From: Marnyiella aurantia
GTDB taxonomy: Bacteria; Bacteroidota; Bacteroidia; Flavobacteriales; Weeksellaceae
DNA length: 64,000 bases
Assembly: GCF_014041915.1 (NCBI RefSeq)
Contig: NZ_CP059472.1
Coordinates: 62,001 to 126,000, forward strand
Direction: 5' to 3'
Translations under genes and position numbers: made by a program
Notes under the pieces: model-generated
What the model was told of the DNA's origin: nothing
Databases searched by the model: none
What the model saw: only the letters and a program-made list of their open reading frames with translations
Part shown: positions 23,321 to 44,201 of the stretch, piece after piece
How positions within the stretch are numbered: the first letter of the stretch is position 1
Layout: every line of letters starts with the position of its first letter

Positions 23321-25297
23321 ATGACTTTTCAGGAACAGATACAACAGGGAATTCCCTCCCAACTACCTCAGCTTAAACCATACGAAAGTGGCATCAACCA
23401 CGCACCTAAACGCAAGGAAATCCTTTCCGACGAAGAAAAAAAACTGGCATTAAGAAATGCTCTGCGTTACTTTGAGCCTGAATTTCACGCTGAACTGCTG
23501 CCTGAGTTCCGTTCCGAACTGGAAACGTACGGACGGATCCATATGTACCGCTTCCGTCCGGAATATGAGATGAAAGCCCGCCCGATTTCCGAGTATCCGG
23601 GGCAGTCTGAGCAGGCAAAGGCCATTATGCTGATGATCCAGAATAACCTGGATTATGCCGTGGCCCAGCACCCACATGAGTTAATTACTTACGGTGGCAA
23701 TGGTGCGGTATTCCAGAACTGGGCGCAATATCTGCTCACTATGAAATATCTGTCTGAAATGACCGACGAACAGACATTAGTAATGTACTCAGGACATCCT
23801 ATGGGACTTTTTCCGTCGCATAAAGAAGCTCCACGAGTGGTGGTGACCAACGGAATGATGATTCCCAATTATTCCAAGCCGGACGACTGGGAGAAATTCA
23901 ATGCCCTGGGCGTATCCCAGTATGGGCAAATGACAGCGGGAAGTTATATGTATATAGGTCCGCAGGGAATTGTGCACGGTACCACAATTACAGTTCTTAA
24001 TGCTTTCAGAAAAATCAATAAACCAACTGCCGGTGGCCTGTTCGTGACTTCTGGACTGGGCGGAATGAGTGGCGCGCAGCCCAAAGCCGGAAATATTGCC
24101 GGATGCATCACTGTCTGCGCCGAGGTGAATCCAAAGATTACCAGGATAAGACATGAGCAGAAATGGATAGACGAAATTCACGAAAATCTTGAGTCACTTG
24201 TAACACGGGTGAAAAAAGCAAAGTCTGATAACGAAACTGTTTCCCTGGCTTATTTGGGCAACGTGGTAGAAGTTTGGGAGAAGTTTGATGAAGAGAATCT
24301 TACTGTTGATATAGGTTCCGATCAGACATCGCTTCATAATCCCTGGGCTGGTGGCTATTACCCAGTAGGCATTTCCTTTGAGGATGCCAACATTATGATG
24401 GCTGAAAATCCCGAACTCTTTAAAGAGAAAGTTCAGGAAAGTCTGAGACGTCATGCGGAAGCCATTAACCGTCACACCGAAAAAGGCACCTACTTCTTTG
24501 ATTACGGAAACGCCTTCCTACTTGAAGCAAGCCGTGCCGGCGCCGATATTATGGCCGAAAACGGCATTGATTTCCGCTATCCGAGCTATGTTCAGGATAT
24601 TATGGGGCCTATGTGCTTCGATTATGGATTTGGTCCTTTCCGTTGGGTGTGTACCAGCGGCGAGCCTGTGGACCTTCAGAAAACCGATGAAATAGCTGCT
24701 CAAATACTGGATGAACTGATGAAGAATTCACCGGCAGAGATACAGCAGCAGATGGCAGATAATATAAAATGGATTAAGGGTGCACAGGAAAATAAACTTG
24801 TTGTTGGATCGCAGGCCAGGATACTTTACGCTGATGCTGAGGGCCGGATGAAAATCGCTGAAGCCTTCAATAAAGCCATCGCAAACGGAGAAATCGGGGC
24901 GGTGGTTTTGGGACGCGATCATCACGATGTGTCGGGCACCGATTCGCCATACCGCGAAACGTCCAACATCTACGATGGCTCAAGGTTTACTGCCGACATG
25001 GCCATTCAAAATGTCATTGGCGACAGTTTCCGCGGGGCCACCTGGGTTTCCATCCACAATGGCGGCGGCGTTGGTTGGGGCGAAGTGATCAATGGTGGCT
25101 TCGGAATGCTGCTGGATGGAAGCGATGATGCCGACAGAAGATTAAAATCTATGCTGTTCTGGGACGTTAACAACGGTATTTCGCGCCGCAGCTGGGCAAG
25201 AAATGAAGGTGCTGTTTTCGCAATTAAAAGAGCAATGGAGGCCGAACCCAATCTGAAAGTGACGTTGCCGAATATTGTGGATGAGGGTCTGTTTTAA
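23321..25297 (+). CDS. hutU: Urocanate hydratase
   Basis: A 658-residue urocanase, the second enzyme of histidine degradation, which converts urocanate to imidazolonepropionate using tightly bound NAD+. Conserved features are the N-terminal LITYGGNGAVFQNWAQY, the NAD-binding GLGGMSGAQPKAGNIAG (about 246-262) and the active-site cysteine region DIMGPMCFDYGFGPFRWVC (about 427-445). The length is about 100 residues above the classic enzyme, as in other Bacteroidota. The other hut genes (hutH, hutI) are not in the window, so the pathway is split on the chromosome. Confidence 0.93.
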   Translation: MTFQEQIQQGIPSQLPQLKPYESGINHAPKRKEILSDEEKKLALRNALRYFEPEFHAELLPEFRSELETYGRIHMYRFRPEYEMKARPISEYPGQSEQAKAIMLMIQNNLDYAVAQHPHELITYGGNGAVFQNWAQYLLTMKYLSEMTDEQTLVMYSGHPMGLFPSHKEAPRVVVTNGMMIPNYSKPDDWEKFNALGVSQYGQMTAGSYMYIGPQGIVHGTTITVLNAFRKINKPTAGGLFVTSGLGGMSGAQPKAGNIAGCITVCAEVNPKITRIRHEQKWIDEIHENLESLVTRVKKAKSDNETVSLAYLGNVVEVWEKFDEENLTVDIGSDQTSLHNPWAGGYYPVGISFEDANIMMAENPELFKEKVQESLRRHAEAINRHTEKGTYFFDYGNAFLLEASRAGADIMAENGIDFRYPSYVQDIMGPMCFDYGFGPFRWVCTSGEPVDLQKTDEIAAQILDELMKNSPAEIQQQMADNIKWIKGAQENKLVVGSQARILYADAEGRMKIAEAFNKAIANGEIGAVVLGRDHHDVSGTDSPYRETSNIYDGSRFTADMAIQNVIGDSFRGATWVSIHNGGGVGWGEVINGGFGMLLDGSDDADRRLKSMLFWDVNNGISRRSWARNEGAVFAIKRAMEAEPNLKVTLPNIVDEGLF

Positions 25298-25341: not shown

Positions 25342-25400
25342 GGAATTCCCCTCCACTGGAGGGGTGGCGAAAAATCTTTGATTTTTTTGACGGGGTGGTT
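25342..25400 (-). repeat. Structured repeat, left copy (L) of DUF559 element
   Basis: Read on the reverse strand it has ACCACCCCGTCA, then an 18-base centre (AAAAAATCAAAGATTTTT), then CGCCACCCCTCC, a short loop and GGAGGGGAATTCC. The centre folds into a 7-bp stem and the right part into a second G/C-rich stem. It is inverted relative to the copy at 25891 and shares its flank boxes with the solo copy at 43868. Confidence 0.85.
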
Positions 25401-25426
25401 AATTCAGATATATATCTATCTATATT

Positions 25427-25852
25427 TTAAGGAGCACTATAATTCGCTATGATAAAGTTCTCCAAATCCTTCATTGCCACACTTAGATTTTGCTTTATAT
25501 CCCAGTCGGTGATTCGGAAAACCTTTAAACCCAGGTTTTCCAGAAAAGCTGTCCGTACAGTGTCATATTGCTGCTTTGTGTCGTGACTAAAACCATCGAT
25601 TTCTACTATTAACCCTAACGTTTTTACATAAAAATCGACGATATAGTTACCGATGATACGCTGCCGGTCAAAATCAATTTGATGAAAACCTTTGTTCCTA
25701 ACCTGTTGCCAAAACAGGACTTCAGATAAAATTCCCTGCTTTCGTTTTTGTTTGGTTAGTGGAATCAACTTAGGATTATATGGCAGATTTTTCACGAAAT
25801 TCCTGTAAATAATGATGCCATCGATGTGAGTTGCTATTTGTTTTTCAAGCAT
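25427..25852 (-). CDS. DUF559 (PD-(D/E)XK, Vsr-like) endonuclease-domain protein
   Basis: A 141-residue protein whose C-terminal two thirds is a DUF559 domain, related in fold to very-short-patch-repair and restriction-like nucleases. The predicted active site is visible: a Glu in ILSEVLFWQQVRNKGF, Asp in GNYIVDFYVKTL, and Glu-x-Asp in LIVEIDGFSH. FRITDWDIKQNL follows, as in the family. The N-terminal 35 residues are specific to this group. ATG 25852 is preferred to a TTG two codons upstream. The gene lies between inverted repeats, which suggests that the protein acts on them (inference). Confidence 0.85.
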   Translation of the reverse strand: MLEKQIATHIDGIIIYRNFVKNLPYNPKLIPLTKQKRKQGILSEVLFWQQVRNKGFHQIDFDRQRIIGNYIVDFYVKTLGLIVEIDGFSHDTKQQYDTVRTAFLENLGLKVFRITDWDIKQNLSVAMKDLENFIIANYSAP

Positions 25853-25890
25853 GACCAATTTTAAATAAAATTAGGTTTTTTGCGAATGCT

Positions 25891-25950
25891 GGAACCACCC
25901 CGTCAATCTCGCCTTCTTCGGATCGCCACCCCTCCGGAGGAGGGGAATTC
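25891..25950 (+). repeat. Structured repeat, right copy (R) of DUF559 element
   Basis: On the forward strand: ACCACCCC-GTCA at 25894-25905, an 18-base centre at 25906-25923 (ATCTCGCCTTCTTCGGAT), CGCCACCCCTCC at 25924-25935, then GGAGGAGGGGAATTC. The centre differs from copy L almost throughout but has the same length and can still pair ATC with GAT and CG with CG. The boxes on either side are nearly identical among the three copies. Confidence 0.85.
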
Positions 25951-26036
25951 TTCGCGTTTTTGGATGAGGAGTGGAGTAAAATTGTCGTGTACGGGTCTGG
26001 AGTATTTTCAAATTAAAAGTTTCTAACCACATTTTC

Positions 26037-26062: not shown

Positions 26063-26743
26063 ATGACCACAGTCAAAGATATTCTCCAAAAACAAACTGC
26101 CGTAAAAGTAATTGACGCTTCAATTGATTACAAAGATTATGTTGCGTTCGATCTTTCAGCACAACATACAGACGAACTCAAATTGGACCTTACGGACGCA
26201 GGAAAATTTGAGGAGTTTGTTGAGAATCATCTTTCCGCAAATCGTGCGAAAGTCGCGTTTGGCGGTTACCTCGAAAAGCGTAACCTTTATAAGAGGAGCA
26301 GCAATTTTAATGATGAAAACTCAGAAGAACGGAATATACACATCGGTTTGGATCTTTGGATCAAAGCAGGAACTGCCGTACTGAGCGCTTTGGACGGGAA
26401 AATTCACAGTTTGCAAAACAATACCTTTCTAGGTGATTATGGCCCGACGGTCATTGTTGAGCACGAAATTGAAGGTATTACTTTCTACACGCTGTACGGC
26501 CATTTAAGTCTGGAAAGTCTGAACGGAAAAAAGGTAGGCCAACTAGTAAAAAAAGGGGAGAAGATCGCCGAACTTGGAAAACCGCCTGTGAACGGTGATT
26601 ATGCACCGCACCTGCATTTTCAGATTATTAAAAATATCGAAAATAAAAAAGGTGATTACCCCGGCGTCTGCAGTATCTGTGAACTTGATTATTACAGCGA
26701 AAACTGTCCGGATCCTAATTTACTGCTGAAGATTGGTACCTAA
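26063..26743 (+). CDS. M23-family (LytM-like) metallopeptidase without signal peptide
   Basis: A 226-residue protein with a complete LytM zinc site: His and Asp in NIHIGLDLWIKAGT (about 93-106), and the His pair in APHLHFQIIK (about 185-194); YTLYGHLS lies between. Family members cleave peptidoglycan peptides, but this one has no signal peptide or membrane segment, and similar domains occur fused to cytosolic phosphotransferase-aminotransferase proteins. A cytosolic, perhaps non-peptidoglycan, substrate is therefore likely (inference). It is a single gene with its own -7 box, next to the DUF559 element. Confidence 0.83.
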   Translation: MTTVKDILQKQTAVKVIDASIDYKDYVAFDLSAQHTDELKLDLTDAGKFEEFVENHLSANRAKVAFGGYLEKRNLYKRSSNFNDENSEERNIHIGLDLWIKAGTAVLSALDGKIHSLQNNTFLGDYGPTVIVEHEIEGITFYTLYGHLSLESLNGKKVGQLVKKGEKIAELGKPPVNGDYAPHLHFQIIKNIENKKGDYPGVCSICELDYYSENCPDPNLLLKIGT

Positions 26744-43612: not shown

Positions 43613-44201
43613 ATTAGTTTGCTCCCGGTTTACAAGCTTATTATCTTCAGTTGATTGCGAAAATTTCAATAATCCTGGATATGGTACTGTAAAAAATAGG
43701 ATGCTTAACATTGTTTAGACTGAAGTTGCTTATTCAAACGCAAATTAATTTGAGGGGTGAAAATACCGCCAATTCTTTTATAGGTGATGTCCCAGGACGT
43801 TGGAATACAGTGTGGAATTGTGAATATTAGCTTAGGTTTCCACCGGGTTGCCGAGTGTGTTACAGAGACTACCCCGTCAATCGCACCTCCGGTGGATTGC
43901 CACCCCTCCGGAGGAGGGGGATTTCCACAAAATATCTCTGCCCTCCGCGCTGTCAGCATATTGAGTAGCGGCGGAAATTCAGTTCTGCAGAGGGAGTGTT
44001 TCATGTTTTTAACGTTTGGACGAAGCTGATAATTGCGGGAGCAAATATCGGCATGGGACGCTGGTGAGAATCATTTGTCCGTCTTTTGGTTGGATTGCCA
44101 ATTATGGATTGCCAGTACAGCAATCTGTAACTGGTGACAAATTTCATTTACAATCCTGTACTGATTTTCAGTAACTTTAGGATAAAGAAAAAAAAATCAC
44201 C
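43613..44201. other. 589-base intergenic region with solo structured repeat
   Basis: A long gap between xthA and the P-type ATPase gene. Its recognisable content is the solo repeat at 43868-43926. A 99-codon reverse-strand frame (43705-44004) crosses it but translates the repeat and is not accepted as a gene. TAACTTTA, one mismatch from the -7 box, lies about 25 bases before the ATPase ATG and may be its promoter. Confidence 0.6.
43868..43926 (+). repeat. Structured repeat, solo copy (S)
   Basis: ACTACCCC-GTCA, an 18-base centre (ATCGCACCTCCGGTGGAT, 43880-43897), TGCCACCCCTCC, then GGAGGAGGGGG and ATTTCC. It has the same layout and spacing as the two copies bounding the DUF559 gene at 25.3-26.0 kb. 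Its centre forms a clean stem (ATC-CACC with GGTG-GAT). No endonuclease gene lies next to it. Confidence 0.85.

Follow-up and report, generated by a model that had tools for sequence, protein, structure and literature searches.

A 64,000-nucleotide stretch of the Marnyiella aurantia genome (contig NZ_CP059472.1, positions 62,001–126,000; hereafter the window) contains a DUF559 endonuclease gene enclosed by two inverted copies of a two-hairpin repeat. The gene and the repeats probably constitute a small mobile element, in which the nuclease mobilizes its own repeats. The arrangement resembles that of repetitive extragenic palindromic (REP) sequences and REP-associated tyrosine transposases (RAYTs), with an enzyme of unrelated fold. 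We favor this reading because of the orientation of the repeats relative to the gene, the recurrence of the arrangement, the clade specificity of the repeats, the contrast with a hairpin-free DUF559 subfamily, and the presence of insertions with empty homologues. The pairing of gene and repeat is real, widespread, and well beyond chance. In the proposed mechanism, the DUF559 protein would recognize the folded repeat and cut DNA at it, and the cleavage would enable the copying of single units or the whole element, or their transfer to new sites. Solo repeats would be non-autonomous offspring of the element, as REPs are of RAYT transposases. We infer the recognition and cleavage of the repeat, and the causal role of the protein in movement, from its fold and its association with the repeats; the REP/RAYT-like interpretation put forward in the first-pass annotation of the window is partly supported. 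The open literature searched, mostly titles and the beginnings of abstracts and including few subscription journals, yielded no description of DUF559 genes with such repeats, and within it the designation as a candidate undescribed element stands.

The first-pass annotation placed the DUF559 gene between inverted repeat copies, each with two boxes around an 18-nt center, and both descriptions are correct. The gene product matches PF04480 in a profile search with 86.2 bits (E = 1.7e-24; curated cut-off 20.6), and the flanking copies (Table 1) form inverted arms of 36 nt (86% identity) and 14 nt (100%). Box A with at most one mismatch is expected 0.39 times in the window and was found four times, a count reached by 0 of 100 shuffles, and box B is expected 0.63 times and was found three times, which 1 of 100 shuffles reaches. 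The folded structure claimed for both copies holds for the one past the gene end (z −3.35 against shuffles) and fails for the one at the gene start (25892–25951; z −0.22), in which stem 2 is intact and the center has decayed. A third, solo copy, which the annotation lacked, has a z of −2.08. The repeat is rare in the window genome: a covariance model finds at least 4 matches in the whole 2.61 Mb. Copy numbers from the model are lower bounds, with 150 first-look candidates scored per genome (150 of 1119 in the window genome). One further PF04480 match of this genome lies within a 1619-aa open reading frame (ORF).

The repeat unit is about 56 nt long and is composed of two hairpins in the form ACCACCCCGTC-(stem 1)-CGCCACCCCTCC-nnn-GGAGGGGAATT, which is shared by both flanking copies in the window. 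Stem 2 is formed by the second box paired with a GGAGGGG arm. The whole element reads 5'-TTCCCCTCC-nnn-GGAGGGGTG-(variable stem)-CGGGGTGGT, followed by the gene and then by the mirror image. The structure of stem 1 is conserved. Among 22 units picked by hand from 169 distinct units, 38 cells have changes on both sides of the stem, compared to a shuffled value of 10.9 (none of 500 shuffles reaches 38), and 90.3% of cells are paired, compared to at most 69.4% with the partner slid. Nine pairs have a change on both sides, a value matched by 25 of 500 shuffles; for the other four measures, 0–2 shuffles match. Stem 2 is invariant in the 22 units and hence uninformative for covariation. Perfect stems longer than in at least 95 of 100 shuffles are present in 106 of 167 distinct centers.

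In the 148 genomes of the family sample, the window protein is matched in 64 and the exact two-box pattern in 41; a reversed control pattern has no match in the 148. A DUF559 match of the window kind is present in 30 of the 41 repeat-bearing genomes. The flanks were read at 64 family DUF559 loci, where most standalone genes near the window type have units directly outside the ORF, and the downstream unit codes for the final residues and the stop codon at several loci (e.g., L014, L018, L024, and L025). The search of related genomes proposed in the first-pass annotation thus finds repeats kept beside the gene and associated with DUF559 genes. A box-blind search detects a C-tract hairpin within 150 nt at 41 of the 45 loci with at least 47% identity to the window protein, and at 0 of 10 loci (L085–L094) of a second DUF559 subfamily from the same family. 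This contrast draws on the 64 loci, with L080, L081, and seven loci that are in-frame or fragments excluded; the 45 repeat-type loci were grouped by the likeness of their proteins to that of the window, and their repeats played no part in the grouping. Remote DUF559 genes at the family loci have no units, except for one 7-nt box 308 nt from L087. The second subfamily, labeled MWKGAP-type after the start of 7 of its 10 members (L087, L093, and L094 begin differently; the start calls are ours), probably has a different function.

The orientation of the units is preserved in named relatives, for which one genome per species was scanned. The best 80 of at least 531 were taken, and 79 were used, as L181 lies too near a contig end. 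They include Chryseobacterium, Epilithonimonas, and Halpernia, and metagenome-assembled genomes labeled Lutibacter, Polaribacter, Gelidibacter, Chitinophagaceae, Prolixibacteraceae, Melioribacteraceae, Ignavibacteriae, and others. An inverted unit is located upstream of the gene in 55 of the 79 and a direct unit downstream in 55, with both in 43 and at least one in 67; units in the opposite orientation occur in 5 and 13, respectively. Control ORFs at the same loci have the upstream unit in 2 of 288 cases, the downstream unit in 2 of 288, both in 0 of 288, and any unit in 7 of 288. A box-blind comparison of the upstream flank with the reverse complement of the downstream flank reaches a score of at least 40 in 54 of 79 relatives and in 1 of 306 control ORFs.

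The phylum sample of 395 genomes contains a generic repeat pattern in 35 and a DUF559 profile match (E ≤ 1e-10) in 161. The profile is matched in 25 of the 35 repeat-bearing genomes, compared to 136 of the 360 others. With a cut chosen after the list had been seen, 17 of the strongest 18 profile hits fall in repeat-bearing genomes, and the listed repeat is within 60 nt of the gene in 16 of these and 338 nt away in the remaining one (G505). Weaker profile hits mostly lack the pattern; among those read, several are accompanied by other palindromes with C/G tracts.

The system is wider than the first-pass annotation had supposed, as it extends to other phyla and enters coding genes in frame. A tblastn search of a plasmid collection found DUF559 in Alphaproteobacteria, Deinococcota, Cyanobacteria, Neisseria, E. 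coli, and others. From 36 and 34 records we hand-picked loci that are non-independent, several coming from one genus, and used 25 of the 26 fetched, leaving out L302, where DUF559 lies within a large ORF. A C-tract hairpin within 150 nt is present at 20 of the 25 loci and at 9 of 126 control ORFs (Fisher p = 9e-14), hairpins on both sides at 8 of 25 and 0 of 126, and an inverted flank score of at least 40 at 8 of 25 and 1 of 126. The five misses are N. gonorrhoeae, which has related imperfect hairpins, Novosphingobium, which has a flank score of 97 and imperfect stems, two E. coli loci, and Synechocystis. Several DUF559 genes are also located within operons, such as sufB-DUF559-sufC and an NAD(P) transhydrogenase operon, and stand at differing gene junctions of the hpa operons of three Deinococcus species (L304, L309, and L311). 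The Sphingomonas unit adjoining a DUF559 gene occurs at 98 places in 13 records. Viral matches are few and weak (5 weak loci in IMG/VR and 1 phage record), so that phages do not appear to be the chief carriers.

Different DUF559 clades have different repeats. The g10 clade has the repeat ...CACCCCTCTGAAAGAGGGG or ...CACCCCTCTAAAAGAGGGG, and ...CACCCCTCTTTCAAAAAGAGGGG is found in a clade whose downstream neighbor reads MSKKRALISVSDK and is presumably purH. Repeats of g26 contain long G+C stems. The clade inserted in leucyl-tRNA synthetase (LeuRS) has CCTCACCCC...CTCTCC/GGAGAGGG or ATTCCCCCTTTCCCCC ends. Genomes G012, G019, and G125 have two DUF559 genes each, one standalone and one in LeuRS, with repeats of clearly different families, and G024 and G095 have two standalone genes each, with variant units. 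The two genes with different repeats in these five genomes provide a within-genome control against a genome-wide repeat background.

In at least 9 of the 148 family genomes, the DUF559 gene and its repeats are fused in frame in LeuRS, directly ahead of the editing domain. Further in-frame fusions in this sample are in methionine synthase (MetH; two), HsdR (two), HsdS (one), and a type ISP restriction enzyme (one), and the phylum sample adds phenylalanyl-tRNA synthetase (PheT; G335), HsdR (G308 and G327), and a type ISP-like gene (G350). The HsdR insertions of four genomes from three families (G028, G064, G308, and G327) are at one site. Pfam confirmed the identity of LeuRS, methionine synthase, PheT, HsdR, and HsdS in one example of each; that of type ISP rests on annotated homologues. 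Because the element stands in frame inside LeuRS, PheT, MetH, HsdR, HsdS, and type ISP genes, it appears to have moved in the course of evolution.

Occupied and empty sites, the comparison of which had been suggested along with the original annotation, both exist; for HsdR, LeuRS, and type ISP, homologues without the insertion were read. The empty hsdR homologues in G053, G118, and G039 are 95–98% identical across the 230-aa fragment searched. The empty hsdR site reads CAAAACAAACATTAGGGAATTTATT and the occupied site CAAAA-TTCCCC...GGGG-AATTTATT, so that about 9 nt are replaced by the insertion, an approximate number, as the left flank has diverged too. In hsdR of G327, an in-frame solo unit CAAGAG-TTCCCC...GGGGTGGT-CAAAAGGC replaces 15 other nt of the homologues. 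Because few target bases are replaced, and not duplicated, in these two hsdR cases, they suggest a cut-and-repair process rather than classical transposition. The type ISP loop is empty in Bernardetia, whose homologue has a stop codon upstream of it, and in Acinetobacter, and it contains a solo unit in G040 and the whole element in G350. The LeuRS site is without DUF559 in 29 of 30 fetched Chryseobacterium-group loci, two of which have other in-frame inserts.

Several loci show other variation of these genes. LeuRS of L201 and L216 is extended at the same loop by 14 and 17 residues, without an obvious palindrome; these are other inserts or remnants. The LeuRS frames of L202, L203, L212, L216, L221, and L222 are 1003–1029 aa long, compared to the usual 938–957, with no DUF559 at the site. 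Short palindromic units without DUF559 lie in frame in LeuRS (near ITEREVEKMSKS, by eye) and HsdR at L103, L099, and L273. An ORF of L277 (G505), N6-methylase-like by eye and containing DUF559, has tandem in-frame units translated NSPLLEGTQGVFSN.

Exact pairs with box A inward and at most 30 nt apart are present in 0 of 59 Chryseobacterium-group genomes, and tight REPIN-like dimers of this orientation were rejected as the general moving unit; dimers may still be a mobile unit in other clades. Looser inverted pairs at most 60 nt apart occur in 11 of the loci retrieved, three of them hairpin-inward and eight box-A-inward. Genus g89 (G412, G439, G451, and G524) has at least eight hairpin-inward pairs, built of two different units with a constant gap of 30–31 nt into a REPIN-like dimer, which may be the mobile unit in this genus. 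One g89-type inverted pair is located directly upstream of the DUF559 gene at L274. Tandem repeat copies with 264-nt spacing are found at G097:C1:2187382-2187949, in a genome without matching DUF559, and G358 has 18 pattern copies and no A1 match, the 10 listed having the common stem TCAG/CTGA.

The best matches of the window protein in a fold search of the PDB are 3hrl (NGO0050 of Neisseria gonorrhoeae; E = 2e-5) and 3r3p (the homing endonuclease I-Bth0305I, catalytic domain; E = 3.5e-4). The profile search gives 8e-19 and 0.013 for the same two proteins, and NGO0050 is itself DUF559-like by profile. The best predicted model has a predicted local distance difference test (pLDDT) score of 84.6 and a predicted template modeling (pTM) score of 0.81; three of the five models score 47.6–58.2, and residues 89–92 are of low confidence. 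Residues E44, D73, E84, and H90 are invariant and D86 and D97 nearly so in 15 sequences, and E44, D73, E84, D86, and H90 are invariant in 40 sequences, drawn from 45 by leaving out one with a stop codon and four more. The conserved acidic and histidine residues may correspond to the EDxHD catalytic residues. The EDxHD family includes I-Bth0305I, according to a 2014 review (PMC3943268). The gene is under purifying selection, with a median ratio of nonsynonymous to synonymous substitution rates of 0.11 and a maximum of 0.29 (360 pairs). Besides DUF559, the protein contains only a weak MTES_1575 domain match. A known defense system was rejected, as PADLOC gave matches that are too weak (mREase_II, E = 1.3e-4; DpdF, E = 0.0016). 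The 50 fold matches listed of 444 do not include E. coli Vsr, and no methyltransferase was seen by eye among the immediate neighbors, with no genome-wide search made for one. The likeness of DUF559 to Vsr is described in PMC12907096, in which the DUF559-containing, Vsr-like VsrA of Caulobacter causes an SOS response when its cytosine methyltransferase is missing and damages DNA in vivo without that enzyme.

Table 1. Coordinates of the element, its repeats and neighbor in the window, and LeuRS loci containing the DUF559 domain
Feature	Position or loci	Strand	Remarks
DUF559 (PF04480) endonuclease gene	25427..25858	-	TTG start 25858, conserved ATG 25852; 141-143 aa
Repeat copy, gene-start side (upstream, inverted relative to gene)	25894..25949	+	Central stem decayed
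Repeat copy past gene end (downstream, direct)	25344..25399	-	Both hairpins intact
Solo copy of the same repeat, without DUF559 gene	43868..43923	+	Box matches
Urocanate hydratase hutU, left neighbor	23321..25297	+	
LeuRS with whole DUF559 domain	L099-L103, L105-L108		G003, G007, G012, G019, G031, G078, G092, G125, G144

In the surroundings of the window element, hutU adjoins DUF559 in several related genomes. The first-pass annotation had raised the question of whether relatives have the gene at this locus without repeats; G004, from the same genus, has the DUF559 gene and repeats together next to hutU. G004 also has a counterpart of the solo copy at the same place, with a stem that differs by compensatory changes. 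Both the hutU-side element and the solo copy are absent from G035; at the DUF559 locus this comparison is weak, as synteny is lost there on the right flank. The solo copy is present or absent between two conserved neighbors. The right neighbor of the element (26063–26743), presumably an M23-type peptidase by its motifs, has no DNA match in three same-genus genomes.

Several observations weigh against the mobile-element reading, the support for which comes from sequence and fold. In the window, the stem of the upstream copy is decayed, and the element at the hutU locus looks vertically inherited. The two hsdR junctions, judged against homologues, have no target-site duplication. A common unit class (GTCTTCTCC...GTCGAATC) has merely a short, imperfect center stem, with no excess over shuffles. 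Units or hairpins are missing where they would be expected, as 12 of the 79 relatives have no canonical unit on either side, and L080 and L081, at 42–43% identity to the window protein, lack the hairpin. Conversely, 10 of the 35 repeat-bearing genomes of the phylum sample have no profile match, and of the 41 in the family sample 9 have no DUF559 match at all (E ≤ 0.001) and 2 only the MetH/LeuRS type. Eight of those 11, in a chosen panel of 22 genomes, have at least 4–36 covariance-model matches, and G001, likewise without a DUF559 match, has 7 weaker ones. Orphan repeats are found in REP/RAYT systems too, and for this reason those observed here weaken the reading without excluding it.

The fold, together with the fixed sites in LeuRS and HsdR, makes a homing-like mode the strongest rival. 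DUF559 would then be a selfish nuclease that cleaves alleles lacking the element at a fixed position, after which repair from the other allele would copy the element in, and the repeats would be boundaries or a binding site, immobile alone. I-Bth0305I, the closest characterized fold relative in the PDB, is a homing endonuclease, and the single occupied sites of LeuRS and HsdR are what such an enzyme would produce. However, solo repeats are many and dispersed, one of them lies in frame in G327 hsdR where the homologues have none, and the element is found at many unrelated places. Furthermore, the insert keeps the translated frame, and no intron or intein context was noticed by eye, no tool search having been made. 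We therefore consider homing alone unlikely.

It is also conceivable that other machinery, such as replication slippage or another transposase, spreads the repeats, and that DUF559 is carried along as a host repair protein. The persistence of repeats in genomes without matching DUF559 and the purifying selection on the gene are in line with this, as are the link of Caulobacter VsrA, with its DUF559 domain, to a solitary cytosine methyltransferase and the repair role proposed for VsrA (PMC12907096). However, a passenger gene predicts neither the fixed orientation of units on both gene sides nor the different repeats of different DUF559 genes within one genome, nor the recurrence in several phyla and the hairpin-free subfamily, and we regard this explanation as quite improbable. 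The AATTTTT that often follows the outer hairpin is terminator-like, and the units could accordingly be terminators or mRNA-stability structures that bound DUF559 transcripts by chance. Such units would not be expected in frame within coding sequence, and control genes of the same loci rarely have any; in addition, no Rfam family was matched in 5 loci at E up to 1. A purely regulatory origin is thus very improbable.

Beyond the mobile-element reading itself, we tentatively propose, as a possibility of somewhat less than even weight, that minimal elements of this kind occur bacteria-wide. They would be moved by a single-domain DUF559 nuclease with an EDxHD-type fold, without a transposase, recombinase, or reverse transcriptase, and each clade would own two-hairpin C/G-tract repeats. 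Such elements might be the source of many orphan palindromic families and insert in frame even in essential genes, such as those of leucyl- and phenylalanyl-tRNA synthetase. Bacterial genomes commonly contain palindromic repeats, many families of which have no known mover. Our analysis names a concrete candidate mover, DUF559, a family of largely unknown function, and supplies its cognate repeats clade by clade together with occupied and empty sites. If the proposal is true, short repeats would also be moved by a nuclease fold that is familiar from homing and, according to the literature, from mismatch repair, and this would account for the DUF559 domains found in tRNA synthetases, methionine synthase, and restriction enzymes.

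The element resembles insertion sequences (IS), and possibly miniature inverted-repeat transposable elements (MITEs), in its inverted terminal repeats around one gene, its non-autonomous copies, and the inverted pairs of genus g89. It differs from them in that it has no DDE transposase domain and no target duplication in the hsdR cases, and the dispersed copies of the Chryseobacterium group are mainly single units. A DDE insertion sequence was rejected on the first of these grounds and on the two hsdR junctions, which replace about 9 and 15 nt without duplication. The EDxHD homing endonuclease I-Bth0305I is similar by fold and profile and is a nuclease of a mobile gene; unlike it, the DUF559 element has palindromic ends, dispersed solo copies, and many insertion sites, with no intron or intein context seen by eye. 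Rickettsia palindromic elements (RPEs) consist of palindromes that lie in frame within protein-coding genes, and the DUF559 element is likewise translated in frame; we know of no nuclease gene associated with RPEs. RPE-4 and RPE-6 are named in PMC3733652.

The CGTC-tagged REPs of Di Nocera 2013 "apparently lack a dedicated transposase" (PMC3733652), and some are intragenic and some are in Bacteroidetes. They are made up of the CGTC tag, a stem of 8–9 bp, a loop of 4–5 nt, and a CCA tail. Many units of the window family similarly consist of CGTC, a stem, and a CCA-containing stretch, but other clades have CGCC or CGGT in place of the tag. A search of 13 DUF559 loci of other phyla for a CGTC or TGTC tag ahead of a stem that begins with AT found none; N. 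gonorrhoeae and Qipengyuania have CGTC next to a C-tract stem, and a CCTC-AT hairpin is present at one E. coli locus. Because these 13 loci have mainly C-tract hairpins, we do not claim identity with the CGTC REPs.

The closest parallels are with REP/RAYT systems, including TnpA-REP, REPtrons, and REPINs. In both, a nuclease gene, mostly one per genome, is flanked by palindromic repeats, many repeats are dispersed, and repeats and enzymes form clade-specific pairs. RAYT repeats outlast their enzyme, a further likeness to the DUF559 system. TnpA-REP transposases belong to the HuH proteins and are related to IS200/IS605 (PMC8266576), and their REPs bear a GTAG tag (PMC3733652). Membership of the DUF559 element in this group was rejected, as the window protein has no HuH (Y1) tyrosine transposase domain. 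With its DUF559 nuclease, its two-hairpin unit with CACCCC boxes, and its in-frame insertions into genes, the element differs from REP/RAYT systems and possibly represents a class of its own among nuclease-plus-palindrome systems.

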